From: Cylindrotheca closterium | Lineage: Eukaryota > Bacillariophyta > Bacillariophyceae > Bacillariales > Bacillariaceae | Assembly (NCBI GenBank): GCA_933822405.4 | Contig: CAKOGP040002291.1 | Span: forward strand, 1 to 64,000 | Length of the DNA: 64,000 bases | Direction of reading: 5' to 3' | Part shown: positions 4,835 to 20,170 of the stretch, one piece after another | Position numbering within the stretch: position 1 is the stretch's first letter | Layout: every line of letters starts with the position of its first letter | Translations under genes and position numbers: made by a program | Notes under the pieces: generated by a model | Seen by the model: the letters and a program-made list of their open reading frames with translations, nothing else | The model's database searches: none | Told to the model about the DNA's origin: nothing

Positions 4835-7129
4835 CTACCTCTTTTGCTGACCATGCTTTCGCTTTTGGTGATCTAGCAGCTGCTTCAACATACCCTTGAG
4901 ATCCTTTCGGTAGGTATCCCGATGACCGGGTGGGACACTCATGCGGTATTCCAACTCTTCGGTCGTCAGACTTTCGGATAACTCCAAAAGAGTACCCAGA
5001 ACGGTGGTAATATGATTGGGAGCAATCTTATCGGGACGCATCGTCAAGTAATACCATTCGCCAGTTTCGGGATCAAAACCCACTTCGGCAATCCGAGACC
5101 CTGATTCAAACTTGTCGGCCTCCAACCGCAATCGTTCACTCTTGGGCAAATTGACATGACGCGTCATATCGACGGTAGTTTGTTCGTTCCCCATGACACC
5201 GACATTTAATTCGTCTTCATCGCCTCCTCCGTGGTAATTTTGACGCATTGGTAACAGCTCCACGTCAATCGTCACAGTGTCCAAGTACTTCCATTTCAAC
5301 AAATTCAAATCCGTACCACAAGCATACGGCAAGTTGGGTTGAAAGATTATTCCATCTGTCAGGTGATTGTGCAGTGGGGGGTTGCGATAGGATCTTGTGC
5401 CCTTTTCTTCAATGACGTGCCCCAACAGGGTTGCCAATTCCGATCGTTGGACAAAGTTTTTGCGGACCAATGGCATTGGAATGCTCGGGTCGGAAAGACT
5501 GGTGGCAAACATGTTCCGATCGGCAGTATCGGTGCGGAAACTAGATTGCTTCAAGTGATACAATCGTTGTTCAAAGGGCAAGTGCAAGATGGCTGCCGAT
5601 GCGCCGACTGTCAAGACATCAAAGACAATGAAAATGGGCCGTGCCTTGTGTCCACTTCCACCACGGTGCATGACCACTTCCCCATCGAATACTGTTCCAG
5701 GCTTGATGAGAGGTAGGACCGACGCCATGGGCTCTTGTCCAGGCTTGGTGGGTATGGCCTGTTTGCCCTTCATGGCACGATCGACCAGAACGACCGTATC
5801 TCCCGTAAAGATCATGAAATGCCGGACTCCATCCGTCTTTTCCGACAAAAAGTAGGCATTCTTGGCCGACTGTTGGATTTCGTCAATGTTGTGTCGGGCA
5901 AAATTGACGGGCATGCAGCCACAGAATTTGACATTGGACAGTGCCGGACTGGGGGCTTCATTTGGTTTGCTGATGGGTGCGTCCATATGGACCGGCTGTG
6001 CCTTGGAACCAGGTGCGGGAGGGCGTTCCATGAATCTCTTGAGAGCACCGCATGTAGCTAGGGCTAATTGTACAGCCTTTTTGTTGGGATGGGGTTGGAG
6101 ATATTCTTCCACGTCCACTGTATCTTCCAGTGGATTGATTTGGCCCAGAATCCACCACAATTGTTGGGAATATGCTTTGGCCAAGCCAGACGCCTTTTCT
6201 GTAGATTCAGCATTGAGGAGTTTCAGCATGTTCTCTGCACGAAGTTCCATTTCAATTTCAAACAGCACAGTCTTCTTGTGTGGAGAATCTCGTGGGGTGG
6301 ACGTGATTTCCGTCACATCAATTTGCCAGGCAATGTTGCCGTCCCGTCGGGTGTAGGACCGCCGTCGTTTGATGCGCTGAATGGACCATCCATCCGGTAC
6401 CGATTTGACCGATTTGTCGACCGTCTTTTCACTGGCCAAGGCTACTCGAAAGTCGTATTTTGCTGCAGGGATAGCCCACTCCATTTGAACCAATTTCTCC
6501 TTGTATTCCATCGCCCCAACTGTAGTACTGTCCGGAAGCTTCCCATTCAAAGGAACTATACAGGGAAAGGCAACTCGACGATCACCAGGATATCCAGCAA
6601 AAACCGTTTCCACTAGTTCCTTTTCTACCAAATCTCGCTTGATCATTGCCACCACCTCTTTATTCGGCATGTTGGGCTTGACCATGACTCCCAAGGCAGC
6701 CGATATCGGGGATGCTTCGGAGAGACCCGCTTGCGTCCAATGGACATAGTGTGATCGAGAGACTCCTGATTCCATGCTTGGTTTCTGCTGCAGTGATGTG
6801 CAGTCAAAGGCTTGTACGAGTGCATTATTGATTCTCTTGGGGCCACTGGAGGTTACCCGCCGATCGTTAATCTTGAGGACTCCGATGCGAGCTTCAATTT
6901 CGCAGAATGGTTTGGTAAACGGAGGTTTGGTAGGTTCATAATTCAATGCTGATCGTCTGGCTTGTACAAGAAACATTTGCAGTGTTTGTCCAGGTTGGAT
7001 TGGTTTGCTTAAAAAAGGATTCTTGTTCTTATTGAGAGCGGCGGAGGATTTTGTTTGTGCTGTATCCTTCTCCAGTTTGTTTCTCTTGTCCATCAAGGAC
7101 GCGAGATTGCCTCCCATCCGCTTTGACAT
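4835..7129 (-). CDS. Bifunctional mRNA capping enzyme: tunnel-type RNA triphosphatase plus guanylyltransferase
   Basis: Single exon of 764 aa starting at the ATG at 7129 (MSKRMGG). The N-terminal half carries the paired acidic strands of the metal-dependent (Cet1-like) triphosphatase: EIEARIG at about 77-83 and EIEMELR at about 291-297, with a basic segment (IQRIKRRRSYTRR) between them. The C-terminal half carries guanylyltransferase motif I, KTDGVRH, with predicted catalytic Lys about 431, then DGEVV, FIVFDVL, a TDGIIFQP-type motif and LLKWKY. Together these remove the 5' gamma-phosphate of nascent mRNA and add GMP in the nucleus. I see no methyltransferase. The first about 65 residues are low-complexity and probably a flexible tail. 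An upstream in-frame extension has ATGs but no recognisable content. Confidence 0.88.
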   Translation of the reverse strand: MSKRMGGNLASLMDKRNKLEKDTAQTKSSAALNKNKNPFLSKPIQPGQTLQMFLVQARRSALNYEPTKPPFTKPFCEIEARIGVLKINDRRVTSSGPKRINNALVQAFDCTSLQQKPSMESGVSRSHYVHWTQAGLSEASPISAALGVMVKPNMPNKEVVAMIKRDLVEKELVETVFAGYPGDRRVAFPCIVPLNGKLPDSTTVGAMEYKEKLVQMEWAIPAAKYDFRVALASEKTVDKSVKSVPDGWSIQRIKRRRSYTRRDGNIAWQIDVTEITSTPRDSPHKKTVLFEIEMELRAENMLKLLNAESTEKASGLAKAYSQQLWWILGQINPLEDTVDVEEYLQPHPNKKAVQLALATCGALKRFMERPPAPGSKAQPVHMDAPISKPNEAPSPALSNVKFCGCMPVNFARHNIDEIQQSAKNAYFLSEKTDGVRHFMIFTGDTVVLVDRAMKGKQAIPTKPGQEPMASVLPLIKPGTVFDGEVVMHRGGSGHKARPIFIVFDVLTVGASAAILHLPFEQRLYHLKQSSFRTDTADRNMFATSLSDPSIPMPLVRKNFVQRSELATLLGHVIEEKGTRSYRNPPLHNHLTDGIIFQPNLPYACGTDLNLLKWKYLDTVTIDVELLPMRQNYHGGGDEDELNVGVMGNEQTTVDMTRHVNLPKSERLRLEADKFESGSRIAEVGFDPETGEWYYLTMRPDKIAPNHITTVLGTLLELSESLTTEELEYRMSVPPGHRDTYRKDLKGMLKQLLDHQKRKHGQQKR

Positions 7130-7518: not shown

Positions 7519-9621
7519 ATGGAATCGCAACAAGTTGATGGCGGATCCGAGCCCAAACGTTTGAAAACTGACGAATCCTCGATTCCAAAAGAAAGCACAG
7601 GGAACGGAGAGGCTGTGCCGGTTTCCGAAGCAGCCAAGCGCCAAATCATGATCGAAACCGAACTGAACGGCATGATCCAAGAAATGATGGCCTCGGAAGA
7701 TTTTGAAGAGGAAGATGAAATGGAACCAGAATCGTATGCGGCAATCATGAAAGCAGCCAAGGAAATCTGCTACACACGAAAGATCTACGATGTTTCTGCC
7801 GACAAAATTGTCTTCTTTCCAAGCATAACCAAAACAATTGTCAACATGGATCTGTTCGAGAAAGCGGAGGAGTACTATTATGATGAAGGTGACGAATTTC
7901 CAATGGAGTACTCGATGGGTCTTCGAAACGTCGCTTTTGAAAAGCTCGAAGCGGAAGGGGACGATGACGAGGAGGAGATGGATGATGATATGATGGAACG
8001 GCTGTCAATGGCTGTGCAACTGACGGAAGATGACAAAGACGAGCTTCAGGAAGCGATTGCCGCCGCCGAAGCAGCAGATGAAGAAGAGGCAGACCAACAA
8101 GACACCGACGAGAAGGAAGATTTTGTAATGGATCCGGTCACTGCAGCAGCAGATCAAAAGGAGGAAGACCAAGATACCGATAAGAAGGAAGATTATATAA
8201 CAAACCCGATCAGCGATGCATCAGATCAAGAAGAGACAGATCAAGGCGTAGGCGAGAAGGAGGATTCTGCAACGGAGCCGGTCAACGAAGTTACAGATCA
8301 AGAAGACGTAGACCAAGAAACCGACGAGAAGGGAGTTTCTGCAGCAGACCCGATTGGCCCTCAAGTGGAAAGTTCTTCTGCGAGTCCAAACGAAAATACA
8401 GCCTCTGATACGGTCTCGAAGGGAGAAGCTGTACCAGTTTCCGAAGCAGCCAAGCGCCAAAACATGATCGATACCGAACTGAACGGCATGATCAAAGAAA
8501 TGATGGACTCGGAAGATTTCGAAGAAGAAGACGAAATGGAACCAGAATCCTACGAGGCAATCATGAAAGCAGCCAAGGAAATCTGCTACACACGAAAGAT
8601 CTACGATGTTTCTGCCGACAAAATCGTCTTCTTTCCAAGCATAACCAAAACGATTGTCAACATGGATCTGTTTGAGAAAGCGGAGGAGTACTATTATGAT
8701 GAAGGTGACGAATTTCCAATGGAGTACTCGATGGGTCTTCGGAACGTCGCTTTTGAAAAGCTCGAAGCGGAAGGGGATGGCGACGATGACGAGGAGGAGA
8801 TGGATGATGATATGATGGAACGTCTGTCAATGGCTGTGCAGCTGACGGAAGATGATAAGGACGAACTCCAGGAAGCGATTGCTGCTGCCGAGGCAGCAGA
8901 TCGAGAAGAGGCAGAGTCTGCAATGGATCCGGTCAATGAAGTAACCGATCGAGAAGAGGACGACCAAAACACCGACGATAAGAAAGCTGCTGCAATTGAT
9001 CCGGTCACCGAAGCACCAGGACAAGAAGGCGCAGACCAAGAAATCGACGACAAGAAGCAAGATCCTGTAGTGGATTCGGTCACAAAAGCAGCAGACCAAG
9101 AAGAGGCAGACCAACAAGACACTGACGAGAAGGAAGATTCTGCAGTGGATCCGGTCACCGAAGCAGCAGATCAAGCAAAGGCAGACCAACAAGACACTGA
9201 GGAGAAGAAAGACTCTGCAATGGATTCGGTCACAAAAGCAAAGGACCAAGAAGAGGCAGACCAACAAGAAACTGACGAAAAGGAAGATTCTGCAGTGGAT
9301 CCGATCAGCCCTCAACAATTAGAAGCATCTTTTGAATCATCACTCGCGAGTAGCAGCGATGTTGGTGGTGATGAGCCTACATTGACTCATGATGAGAGAT
9401 CTGCTGAGGTCGTTACGATTGGCAAATCGAATCTTGCGCCAGACGAATCCGGCACGCCCGAAACTGTTCCTTCAGAAGAGCCAGCTACAAAAACGAAAGC
9501 AGGAATATTCACCAAGGGTCTCGAGACGGCAAAGGGATTATTTAATGAGCACACTGAAATGGCGGCTGTGGCTTGCTTGGCGATCTTTGCTGCAGCTGCA
9601 ATTTCTGCAACGAGGAGGTAA
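7519..9621 (+). CDS. Acidic two-module repeat protein with C-terminal membrane anchor
   Basis: Single exon, 700 aa, ATG at 7519 (MESQQVDGG). Two copies of a module of about 160 aa occur, starting at residues about 30 and 302. Each runs GEAVPVSEAAKRQ, then MESYEAIMKAAKEICYTRK-like and KIVFFPSITKTIVNMDLF segments, then EYYYDEGDEFPMEYSMGLRN and an EEEMDDDMMERLS helix. Spacers are acidic 20-30 aa units of the type DQEEADQQDTDEKEDSA. The last about 40 residues (ETAKGLFNEHTEMAAVA, then an Ala/Ile span and TRR) form one membrane segment. The module is shared with the channel gene at 15716-20170, and the C-terminal segment with the protein at 20566-21669, so the gene looks chimeric. Its function is unknown. 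Confidence 0.85.
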   Translation: MESQQVDGGSEPKRLKTDESSIPKESTGNGEAVPVSEAAKRQIMIETELNGMIQEMMASEDFEEEDEMEPESYAAIMKAAKEICYTRKIYDVSADKIVFFPSITKTIVNMDLFEKAEEYYYDEGDEFPMEYSMGLRNVAFEKLEAEGDDDEEEMDDDMMERLSMAVQLTEDDKDELQEAIAAAEAADEEEADQQDTDEKEDFVMDPVTAAADQKEEDQDTDKKEDYITNPISDASDQEETDQGVGEKEDSATEPVNEVTDQEDVDQETDEKGVSAADPIGPQVESSSASPNENTASDTVSKGEAVPVSEAAKRQNMIDTELNGMIKEMMDSEDFEEEDEMEPESYEAIMKAAKEICYTRKIYDVSADKIVFFPSITKTIVNMDLFEKAEEYYYDEGDEFPMEYSMGLRNVAFEKLEAEGDGDDDEEEMDDDMMERLSMAVQLTEDDKDELQEAIAAAEAADREEAESAMDPVNEVTDREEDDQNTDDKKAAAIDPVTEAPGQEGADQEIDDKKQDPVVDSVTKAADQEEADQQDTDEKEDSAVDPVTEAADQAKADQQDTEEKKDSAMDSVTKAKDQEEADQQETDEKEDSAVDPISPQQLEASFESSLASSSDVGGDEPTLTHDERSAEVVTIGKSNLAPDESGTPETVPSEEPATKTKAGIFTKGLETAKGLFNEHTEMAAVACLAIFAAAAISATRR
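7606..8902 (+). repeat. Two coding module repeats, 816 bp apart
   Basis: The module beginning GEAVPVSEA starts at 7606 and again at 8422, an offset of 816 bp (272 codons). The two copies are nearly identical over about 480 bp and diverge in the acidic spacers. Confidence 0.85.
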
Positions 9622-15715: not shown

Positions 15716-18700
15716 CTATGATACCTTTTCCTTGTCAAATGCCGCGATTTCCTCAGGAGAAGTCGTTGGCCTGCTGGTCTTTCTCTTGGACGCTCCAGAA
15801 GGCACATCTGGATCTTTCACGGCGCAAAGTGATTCCAACAATTCTCTCACCTGGCCCAAGAATCCACCCATTACGTTGCAGTTTGCAATGGCATATAGTG
15901 CCAGGAAAAATCGACCAGCGTTCGTCCGAGGAGTCAAATCACCATAACCAATCGTTGTCCCTATAGTTGTTTTGCAAAAGTTTATTGGGTGCATTCCGCG
16001 ACGTGAGACCATGGAGAAACCAATCTCACCGACAATGATTGTTGTAGAATTCAGTATTTCCGACTCACCTGTAATTACACATAGATGGACCGCTTCCGAG
16101 TAAGACAATCCTTCTATTGTTGTCAACATGGATACGCCCATCACCAACATCAAGGTTCCTACGGAAAGAGCCCCTCCTGGTACCATGTTCTGCCACGAGG
16201 ATGCCAACTCCATGATTGGACCGCAGAAAAAGCCCAATCCAAACAACGGCAACATGGTCAAGAATATCCTTCCTACTACATCCGTTTCTCCTGGACAAAT
16301 GTCACCAAATCTACATTCAGTCAAATCAGGGCACTTCTTGTTAGTAAAGATCGAGAAACAACATGGCAAACTGGCAAGTGAGGAGTGCGTCGTCTTACCC
16401 AACTCTATTGTGTTCCAAAATTCAAAGTTTGAAATCTTCGTGAGATTACAGCATGTCACCCAGTTACGAATTAATACCCGCTTGCTTCAAAGAAATACTC
16501 ACGTCGTCAAGGACATTACTACAAGGCGATTGATTGATTCGACGGCCAACAACAAAATGAATAACATACTGTACATTTCGTAGTAACAAGATAATTCACG
16601 CACTCACCCGAACAATAAAATGAATTCACCAGCTTGGATCCTTCCGCTCCATCTGCAATCATTCCTGGAATAGTGTAGAACCCTAAAGCAAACAACGTTA
16701 GTCACTGATAAGGTAGGCCGATACCATATCATCTCATATGCAAAAATCTTGTGAAAACATGTTTCTAAATACCGACCTGTCATTCCAAAAAGAATCAATC
16801 CAGCCCCCGATGATATCACTCGATGTGTAGAAAGAATTTTCTTCGTGGTTGCTTTTGATACCAAATAATCTTGTTCAGGAACGCTTTCTGGCACAATGGA
16901 TCGGTCTGGTGGCCGGTCCAATTTGTCAATCTTAGCTTCAGATCCCTCGTCAGTCAACTTCGCTTCAACAAGATCGCTGTTCGCGAGTGCTTTGGAAGAT
17001 GCTTCCAATTGAGGGCTAGTCGGATCGATTACGGAAAGTTCTTTATTGTCGATGTCTTGGTCTGCCTCTTCTGAATATGCTGCTCCGATGATCGGATCAA
17101 TTGCCGAATCTGCCTTATTATCTATGTCTTTGTCTGTCTCTTCTTGATCTATTACTTCGGTGACCGTATCCATTGCACAATCTTCCTTCTTATCGATGTC
17201 TTGGACTACATCTTGATCTGCCGGTTTGGTGACTGTATCGATAGCAGAATCTTCCTTATCCTCTTCGACGTCATTGTCTGCCTCTTTTGGATCGGATACT
17301 TCATTGACTGTATCGATTGCAGAATCTTCCTTATCCTCGTCGATGTCTTTGTCTGTCTCTTCTTTAGGGCTGATCGCATCGATTGCAGAAAGTTCGTTCT
17401 CGTCAGTGCTTTGGTCTGCCTCGTCTTGATCTGTTACTTCGTTTACCAGATCCATAACAGAATCATCTTTCTCGTCCGTGTATCTGTCCTCCTTTTCTTG
17501 ATCTGTGATTTCGGTGACAGTATTCATTGCAGAATCTTCCGTACTACCCATTTCTCCTTCTGCCTCTTCTTCATCTGCTGCTTCAGTGACCGGATCCATT
17601 GCACCATCTTGGTCTGCCTCTTCTTTATCTGCTGCCTCGGCAGCAGCAATCGCTTCCTGGAGTTCGTCCTTATCATCTTCCGTCAGTTGCACAGCCATTG
17701 ACAGACGCTCCATCATGTCATCGTCCATTTCCTCATCGTCATCATCCTCCCCTTCCGCTTCGAGCTTTTCAAAAGCGACGTTCCTAAGACCCATCGAGTA
17801 CTCCATTGGAAATTCGTCACCTTCATCATAATAGTACTCCTCCGCTTTCTCGAACAGATCCATGTTGACAATCGTTTTGGTTATGCTTGGAAAGAAGACG
17901 ATTTTGTCGGCAGAAACATCGTAGATCTTTCGCGTGTAGCAGATTTCCTTGGCTGCTTTCATGATTGCCTCATACGATTCGGGTTCCATTTCGTCTTCCT
18001 CTTGGAAATCTTCCGAGTCCATCATTTCTTTGATCATGCCGTTCAGTTCGGTTTCGATCATGTTTTGGCGCTTCGTTGCTTCGGAAACTGGTACGGCTTC
18101 TCCCGTCGAGACAGTAGCAGAGGTTGTAGTTTCGGTTGGACTCGCAGAAAAACTTTCCACTTGAGGGCCAATCGGGTCTGCTGCAGAAACTTCCTTCTCG
18201 TCGGTTTCTTGGTCTACGTCTTCTTGATCTGTAACTTCGTTGACCGGATCCATTCCAGAGTCTTCCGACTGCCCCATATCTTGTTCGTTTCGATGTGATA
18301 TTTCGATGATCGGGTCATTTGTAGCATCTTCCTTTTCGCCGGTGTCTTGGTTTGCCTCGTCTTGATCTGTTACTTCGTTTACCAGATCCATAACAGAATC
18401 ATCTTTCTCGTCCGTGTATCTGTCCTCCTTTTCTTGATCTGTGATTTCGGTGACAGTATTCATTGCAGAATCTTCCTTACTACCCATTTCTCCTTCTGCC
18501 TCTTCTTCATCTGCTGCTTCAGTGACCGGATCCATTGCACCATCTTGGTCTGCCTCTTCTTTATCTGCTGCCTCGGCAGCAGCAATCGCTTCCTGGAGTT
18601 CGTCCTTATCATCTTCCGTCAGTTGCACAGCCATTGACAGACGCTCCATCATGTCATCGTCCATTTCCTCATCGTCATCATCCTCCCCTTCCGCTTCGAG

Positions 18701-20170
18701 CTTTTCAAAAGCGACGTTCCTAAGACCCATCGAGTACTCCATTGGAAATTCGTCACCTTCATCATAATAGTACTCCTCCGCTTTCTCGAACAGATCCATG
18801 TTGACAATCGTTTTGGTTATGCTTGGAAAGAAGACGATTTTGTCGGCAGAAACATCGTAGATCTTACGCGTGTAGCAGATTTCCTTGGCTGCTTTCATGA
18901 TTGCCTCATACGATTCGGGTTCCATTTCGTCTTCCTCTTGGAAATCTTCCGAGTCCATCATTTCTTTGATCATGCCGTTCAGTTCGGTTTCGATCATGTT
19001 TTGGCGCTTCGTTGCTTCGGAAACTGGTACGGCTTCTCCCGTCGAGACAGTAGCAGAGGTTGTAGTTTCGGTTGGACTCGCAGAAAAACTTTCCACTTGA
19101 GGGCCAATCGGGTCTGCTGCAGAAACTTCCTTCTCGTCGGTTTCTTGGTCTACGTCTTCTTGATCTGTAACTTCGTTGACCGGATCCATTCCAGAGTCTT
19201 CCGACTGCCCCATATCTTGTTCGTTTCGATGTGATATTTCGATGATCGGGTCATTTGTAGCATCTTCCTTTTCGCCGGTGTCTTGGTTTGCCTCGTCTTG
19301 ATCTGTTACTTCGTTTACCAGATCCATAACAGAATCATCTTTCTCGTCCGTGTATCTGTCCTCCTTTTCTTGATCTGTGATTTCGGTGACAGTATTCATT
19401 GCAGAATCTTCCTTACTACCCATTTCTCCTTCTGCCTCTTCTTCATCTGCTGCTTCAGTGACCGGATCCATTGCACCATCTTGGTCTGCCTCGTCTTTAT
19501 CTGCTGCCTCGGCAGCAGCAATCGCTTCCTGGAGTTCGTCCTTATCATCTTCCGTCAGCTGCACAGCCATTGATAGCCGCTCCATCATGTCATCGTCCAT
19601 TTCCTCGTCGTCATCATCCTCCCCTTCCGCTTCGAGCTTTTCAAAAGCGATGTTCCTAAGACCCATCGAGTACTCCATTGGAAATTCGTCACCTTCATCA
19701 TAATAGTACTCCTCCGCTTTCTCAAACAGATCCATGTTGACAATCGTTTTGGTTATGCTTGGAAAGAAGACGATTTTGTCGGCAGAAACATCGTAGATCT
19801 TACGCGTGTAGCAGATTTCCTTGGCTGCTTTCATGATTGCCTCATACGATTCGGGTTCCATTTCGTCTTCCTCTTGGAAATCTTCCGAGTCCATCATTTC
19901 TTTGATCATGCCATTCAGTTCGGTTTCGATCATGTTTTGGCGCTTCGCTGCTTCGGAAACTGGCACGGCCTCTCCATTCGTTGTGCTTTCTTTTGGAATC
20001 GAGGATTCGTCAGTTTTCAAACGTTTGGGATCGGATTCACCATCAGTGGAGGTTTCCGTTTCGTTTGGAAGCGACTCGCTAGCTTCCAAACGTCCTGAAT
20101 CGGATTCAACTGCAGACGATATTCGTTTCCAAACAATGGGCTCGGGTCCGCCATCTTCTTGCGATTCCAT
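15716..20170 (-). CDS. Two-pore-domain potassium channel with a giant acidic repeat N-terminus (six exons, two micro-exons)
   Basis: Exons 20170-16777, 16682-16608, 16518-16503, 16404-16399, 16310-16069 and 15960-15716 sum to 3978 nt (1325 aa) with phase kept across all five GT-AG introns (94, 89, 98, 88, 108 bp). Residues 1-1090 hold three acidic modules like those at 7519-9621, two inside a 936-bp tandem unit. The remainder is a K2P-type channel: TM1 about 1118-1141, pore 1 VMSLTTVGFGD (filter 1161-1167), TM2 about 1177-1200, TM3 about 1208-1230, pore 2 CVITGTTIGYGDLTP (filter 1246-1252), TM4 about 1261-1282, and a short basic tail. Both filters are of the potassium-selective type. The large exon and the pore-2 frame look like separate genes until spliced. 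The membrane and role of the acidic N-terminus are unknown; Ca2+ or partner binding is speculation. Confidence 0.85.
16399..16404 (-). other. 6-nt micro-exon in pore 1 of the K+ channel
   Basis: AGTTGG is flanked by ..ATAG and GTAAGACG. Insertion between the neighbouring exons gives AC|A GTT GG|A TTT, that is T-V-G-F, restoring TTVGFGD. Without it the filter would read TTFGD. Confidence 0.75.
16503..16518 (-). other. 16-nt micro-exon in pore 1 of the K+ channel
   Basis: TAATGTCCTTGACGAC is flanked by ..TTGTAG and GTGAGTATTT. In phase it encodes V-M-S-L-T-T, the pore helix leading into the selectivity filter. Confidence 0.8.
17416..19979 (-). repeat. 936-bp coding tandem repeat, about 2.7 copies
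   Basis: Units start at 17416, 18352 and 19288 (constant offset 936 bp, 312 codons); the last is cut short near 19979. Units differ by only scattered substitutions, including synonymous positions such as CTTTCGCG/CTTACGCG at about 17930 and 18866. This indicates very recent expansion or ongoing homogenisation. Confidence 0.9.

Follow-up and report, generated by a model that had tools for sequence, protein, structure and literature searches.

A putative chimeric K2P potassium channel with a large acidic, module-bearing front end in the diatom Cylindrotheca closterium

Within a 64,000-nucleotide stretch of the Cylindrotheca closterium genome (contig CAKOGP040002291.1, positions 1 to 64,000; hereafter the window), a long open frame for an acidic repeat protein lies directly ahead of the exons of a potassium channel. 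The original prediction joined the two into a single gene, and the locus therefore raises the question of whether an ion channel has here acquired a very large extra domain, from where, and to what effect. Coordinates below are window positions unless another contig or locus is named.

Results

The spliced coding sequence of 3978 nt specifies a protein of 1325 aa and runs through six exons on the minus strand, from 20170 to 15716 (Table 1). The exons lie where they had originally been placed and add up to the predicted length, and all five introns, each of 88-108 nt, are indeed of the GT-AG type. At the donor of exon 1 the exonic AG is followed by GTCGGT, which is not the most frequent donor form; it is conserved in C267, a paralog in the same genome. 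Selectivity filter 1 is split by consecutive microexons of 16 and 6 nt in both K2P paralogs (exons 3 and 4 in Table 1; 5080-5095 and 5196-5201 at locus L031), the copies differing synonymously.

Table 1 Features of the fusion gene and its neighbour (window positions)
Feature	Position	Strand	Details
Neighbour paralog of the N-terminal half, no channel	7519..9621	+	700 aa; two modules, linkers, C-terminal hydrophobic segment
Exon 1: N-terminal leader, three modules with linkers, TM1 start	16777..20170	-	3394 nt; open frame from ATG at 20170
Module copy 1, residues 77-209	19544..19942	-	Profile match, 133 aa; copy included in profile
Module copy 2, residues 389-521	18608..19006	-	936-bp period; one nonsynonymous difference to copy 1
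Module copy 3, residues 701-833	17672..18070	-	936-bp period; amino acids as copy 2
Last acidic linker, residues 834-1100	16871..17671	-	Ends VPESVPEQ; net charge -71
Fusion junction	16867..16871	-	blastn similarity to module-free C267 begins at 16867
Exon 2: TM1 remainder, pore 1 start	16608..16682	-	75 nt; equal length in C267
Exon 3: microexon	16503..16518	-	16 nt; equal length in C267
Exon 4: microexon within selectivity filter 1 (TTVGFGD)	16399..16404	-	6 nt; equal length in C267
Exon 5: filter 1 end, TM2, TM3	16069..16310	-	242 nt; equal length in C267
Exon 6: pore 2 (TTIGYGD), TM4, C-terminus ...KEKVS	15716..15960	-	245 nt including stop

The joined sequence from TM1 to pore 1 is also seen in the protein of a relative, P0005, which like P0003 is a complete ORF listed from MMETSP transcripts. 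P0005 departs from the K2P sequence at the position of intron 5, before filter 2, in a way suggestive of intron retention. A seventh exon (15671-15603, adding IYSFSNTIETTKDRLTRQLIDP) possesses both a splice donor and an acceptor but was set aside, because P0003 ends in ...LTKEKAS and C267 in ...KEKAS, matching the stop after ...KEKVS. The position in C267 homologous to the donor of this exon reads GC; an alternative isoform that uses it is conceivable.

The channel is formed by the last 225 residues. Both selectivity filters can be read in the spliced protein as originally claimed, TTVGFGD being assembled from the 16-, 6- and 242-nt exons and followed downstream by TTIGYGD. Pfam Ion_trans_2 matches the spliced protein in two stretches (E = 1.4e-21), i.e., two pore domains in one subunit, and also matches at 15836-15979, in the region of exon 6. 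Hydropathy of the spliced protein (cut-off 1.2) places four membrane spans in the order TM1-P1-TM2-TM3-P2-TM4; together with an AF2 model of the relative P0004 (pLDDT 85.5), which is a short K2P rather than the fusion protein, this upholds the predicted four-span topology. The filter motifs recur among 34 aligned relatives, with GYGD or GLGD as variants of filter 1 and with either GFGD or a change of the last D to N or E in filter 2.

C267 is a module-free K2P protein of 240 aa, whose ATG is preceded by an in-frame TAA three codons upstream. Its exons of 136, 75, 16, 6, 242 and 248 nt have borders conserved with those of the fusion gene, the first donor GTCGGT included. The two proteins are identical at 194 of 223 aligned residues (87%), and blastn aligns their DNA with 79.6% identity over 1245 columns, starting at the junction. 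Over the 223 aligned codons, 51.5 synonymous and 32.5 nonsynonymous changes separate the two genes, which corresponds to a dN/dS of 0.165 (Fisher p = 4e-15, counts rounded). Chance can be excluded for the channel part because C267 has the matching exon pattern and donor and because the changes are in synonymous excess. With seven of eight outgroups, more amino-acid changes fall on the K2P half of the fusion than on C267, so some relaxation is possible; the counts are 11 versus 4 with P0003 as the outgroup and 3 versus 4 with P0006. This greater change counts against the main reading given below and could stem from a loosening of constraint or from a changed function.

The front end is strongly acidic, with 160 D and 193 E in residues 1-1100 and a net charge of -267. 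It contains two full units of 312 aa (936 bp), at residues 66-377 and 378-689, which differ at three amino acids, and a partial third unit that tracks the second over residues 690-918 with one difference and then diverges. Each unit contains one conserved module of 133 aa. The original description as acidic repeated modules was thus right about the repeats and the acidity, but understated the case, since each copy is a conserved domain of about 130 aa belonging to a gene family. Copies 1 and 2 are separated by six synonymous and one nonsynonymous differences, copies 2 and 3 by one synonymous difference. A profile built with these copies included matches exon 1 three times (2e-61 to 2.8e-61). 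When the three copies are compared with the modules of the neighbouring gene and of C278, dN/dS is 0.05-0.21; against the neighbour's modules it is 0.05-0.08, the differences being mainly synonymous. Judged from these substitution patterns, both halves of the fusion protein are shown to be under purifying selection, part of which may predate the fusion.

P0097, the only other protein labelled Cylindrotheca closterium that was found, is identical to the fusion over residues 1-224 (19499-20170), after which it has a different linker and a second module and soon ends; for these reasons it does not confirm the join. The comparison suggests that the array varies between assemblies, although P0097 may instead be a paralog.

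Two single-protein searches place the module family at no fewer than 13 loci in the genome, the fusion gene included: C549 (two genes), C278, C530, C23, C439, C79, C113 (two loci), C157, C542, C534 and C541. Thirteen diverse modules, module 1 among them, share nine invariant columns (R1, I5, E8, Y45, P61, A76, P88, Y91 and L95 in module 1 numbering). The closest modules found outside the fusion gene are those of the neighbour in Table 1, with 93 and 95% identity to module 1; the hydrophobic segment of this protein starts at residue 679, and the protein has no Pfam family at E ≤ 0.01. In C278, modules lie ahead of a choline-transporter-like domain (PF04515), and the same domain accompanies the module in the precomputed annotation of P0098 and P0103, both outside this genome and the latter labelled Bacillariaceae. 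C542 combines the module with cyclic-nucleotide-binding domains. C530 ends in a C-terminal hydrophobic segment, and in C439 a weak one occurs in a frame adjacent to that of the module. Five of the eight locus ORFs scanned, which came from loci other than C157, C534 and C541, show no hydrophobic segment, so membrane attachment is not a general property of the module.

Individual loci illustrate this range. L032 (1048-4494, minus strand) encodes two modules with a choline-transporter-like protein (PF04515), P0098 and P0103 being alike; L037 (3555-6239, plus strand) holds modules and cyclic-nucleotide-binding domains in a single frame; and L036 (3267-6362, plus strand) has six divergent modules in tandem, followed by a Lys-rich tail.

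No fold or family above cut-off was obtained for the module from Pfam (searched with the fusion protein), NCBIfam, PDB sequences, Foldseek or VIA-align. An AF2 model built from eight sequences reached a mean pLDDT of 70.7, and because this is modest we make no claim to a new fold. USP_UIM_N, Antimicrobial18, ARMC9_LisH, AlpA and other weak Pfam rows for the fusion protein fall below the cut-offs; AlpA on C530 and the CAMSAP2 CH domain on C113 pass them but cover only 31-56 residues, and were judged spurious.

The join itself can be mapped closely. Position 16867, where similarity to C267 begins, is the second codon of the stretch DYLVSKATTKK, and the linker just upstream (...VPESVPEQ) aligns with C278 (...VPESISEQ), P0098 and the neighbouring gene at 7519-9621. 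A chimera joined within a few codons follows from these two borders. A start-proximal methionine of the K2P lineage, kept in C267, P0005 and P0012, reads as threonine (ACG) at residue 1109 of the fusion. The simplest account of the gene sequences is that the 5' part of a module gene was joined to a K2P duplicate. The predictions of an in-frame fusion, of its splicing and of a K2P channel are supported by the module-free paralog, the conserved splicing and the selection on both halves.

A C267-type channel query found 95 proteins, their shortness being in part a consequence of a search that admits about 132-420 aa; named sources include Nitzschia inconspicua, Seminavis robusta, Fragilaria crotonensis, Amphora coffeiformis, Helicotheca tamesis and Epithemia clementina. 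A search for K2P channels with long N termini (proteins of about 356-1132 aa, a range too narrow to capture another full fusion of 1325 aa) gave 43 matches. The best, P0071, shares 32% identity across 75% of the channel; it is double-K2P-like, and its precomputed annotation lists SAP and IRK domains. The remainder have E values of 3e-21 or worse. By the module profile, the module is absent from all 43. Among the best 7996 candidates, a module search (about 385-1225 aa) found eight proteins, the window's own included, and of the 145 proteins from the three protein searches the profile matches these same eight and none of the other 137. Within the length ranges searched, no second case of the fused form was found. 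The metagenome proteins P0071, P0104 and P0105 are unusual K+ channels in their own right, the last two being multi-pore proteins with C2 domains.

Among the literature matches listed, no title or opening of an abstract describes the fusion or the module; the C. closterium assembly GCA_933822405.4 is named in PMC12159174. As far as these searches reach, the K2P chimera is new in its combination of parts. The parts are a known kind of channel and a module family for which these searches gave no name.

Discussion

We propose that the gene encodes a chimeric K2P channel whose front end acts as a scaffold or targeting module that places a K+ leak conductance, a reading from sequence to which we assign a probability of about 0.62. 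The sequence shows a duplicated diatom K2P gene preceded by the 5' part of a module gene (modules plus acidic linker), with the in-frame join only a few codons from where the channel originally began, and the encoded protein retains a complete channel. From K2P topology, the front end of some 1100 residues is expected to be cytosolic and present twice per dimeric channel, which would bring about -530 charges to the complex. The module could serve in the cytosol as a scaffold or targeting domain for whichever membrane segment follows it, the long acidic linkers serving as flexible spacers, and the fusion would then place the conductance in the membrane or complex where other module-bearing membrane proteins work. 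Of the roles suggested originally (cation sensor, tether, regulatory lever), tethering, or else targeting, seems more likely than a sensor specific to the channel, since different membrane proteins share the module. More tentatively, and with a good deal of doubt, this could be widened to a lineage-specific cytosolic module that has been shuffled onto a hydrophobic tail, a choline-transporter-like carrier and a K+ channel as a common scaffold that brings them together in one membrane or complex. The K2P would then be a recent recruit, with the variable array determining its gating or its location.

That two adjacent genes, or a misassembly, have been read as one is very improbable. The joined gene is known from genomic sequence alone and its array is repetitive; however, the TM1 half shares the open frame of the array, the join is in frame with a conserved donor, and between residue 1000, the site of the last in-frame ATG, and TM1 there is no further in-frame start codon. 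Misassembly from C267 was rejected on the DNA identity: the K2P copy differs by some 20% from C267, which was the one other close copy that the genome yielded, and was therefore not borrowed from there by the assembler.

Two further explanations accept the chimera and differ over what the front end does; we regard both as unlikely, and about equally so. The array might act on the channel itself, as in the sensor or lever suggested originally: it would bind Ca2+, Mg2+, H+ or polyamines, or exert a local negative field, and so alter gating or concentrate K+ at the inner mouth. The net charge of residues 1-1100 fits such a role, and precomputed EF-hand domains in some relatives (P0046, P0049 and P0079) make cation control plausible in this channel group. 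Yet the module also serves proteins that have no channel, no Pfam metal-binding family rises above cut-off in the array, and the differing linker and unit order in P0097 argue against a finely tuned sensor. This variability, along with the near identity of modules 2 and 3, suits instead a nearly neutral chimera, in which the added front end is no more than tolerated and channel function matches that of the paralog; the failure to find the fused form elsewhere within the searched length range and the greater change in the channel half (with seven of eight outgroups) lean the same way. Set against such neutrality are the long frame, which stays open, and the low dN/dS of modules 1-3 relative to the neighbour, although pre-fusion selection could explain part of the latter. 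A scaffold or targeting role for the front end remains our preferred reading.

An ion channel appears here to have acquired a very large extra domain, and the chimera, whose join is located to within a few codons, shares one genome with the unfused paralog and with a module gene that resembles the donor. Their co-occurrence makes the effect of a fused domain on a K2P channel testable with natural controls. The locus also draws attention to an uncharacterised domain family that several membrane proteins carry.

Among known systems, the neighbouring tail-anchored module protein has a leader and linker related to those of the fusion but ends in a single hydrophobic segment. The choline-transporter-like fusions (C278, P0098 and P0103) share modules and a homologous linker with the K2P fusion, whereas their membrane part is a PF04515 transporter domain and not a channel. 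Closest to the channel itself is a short diatom K2P subfamily (C267, P0004, P0012, P0033 and others), of which C267 shares introns and microexons; its members are without the module array, and the 32 aligned relatives (fragments P0001 and P0002 left out) have short N termini and lengths of 187-275 aa. Beyond the diatoms, the K2P or tandem-pore channels, i.e., animal TWIK, TREK and THIK and plant TPK, likewise have two pores, Ion_trans_2 twice and the predicted span order, and KCNK2 and KCNK13 are among the K2P entries matched in sequence. A long cap in the TM1-P1 loop is a feature of animal K2P channels, while the loop of the fusion protein is short and lacks it. What sets the fusion apart from known K2P channels is the stretch of about 1100 acidic residues before TM1.
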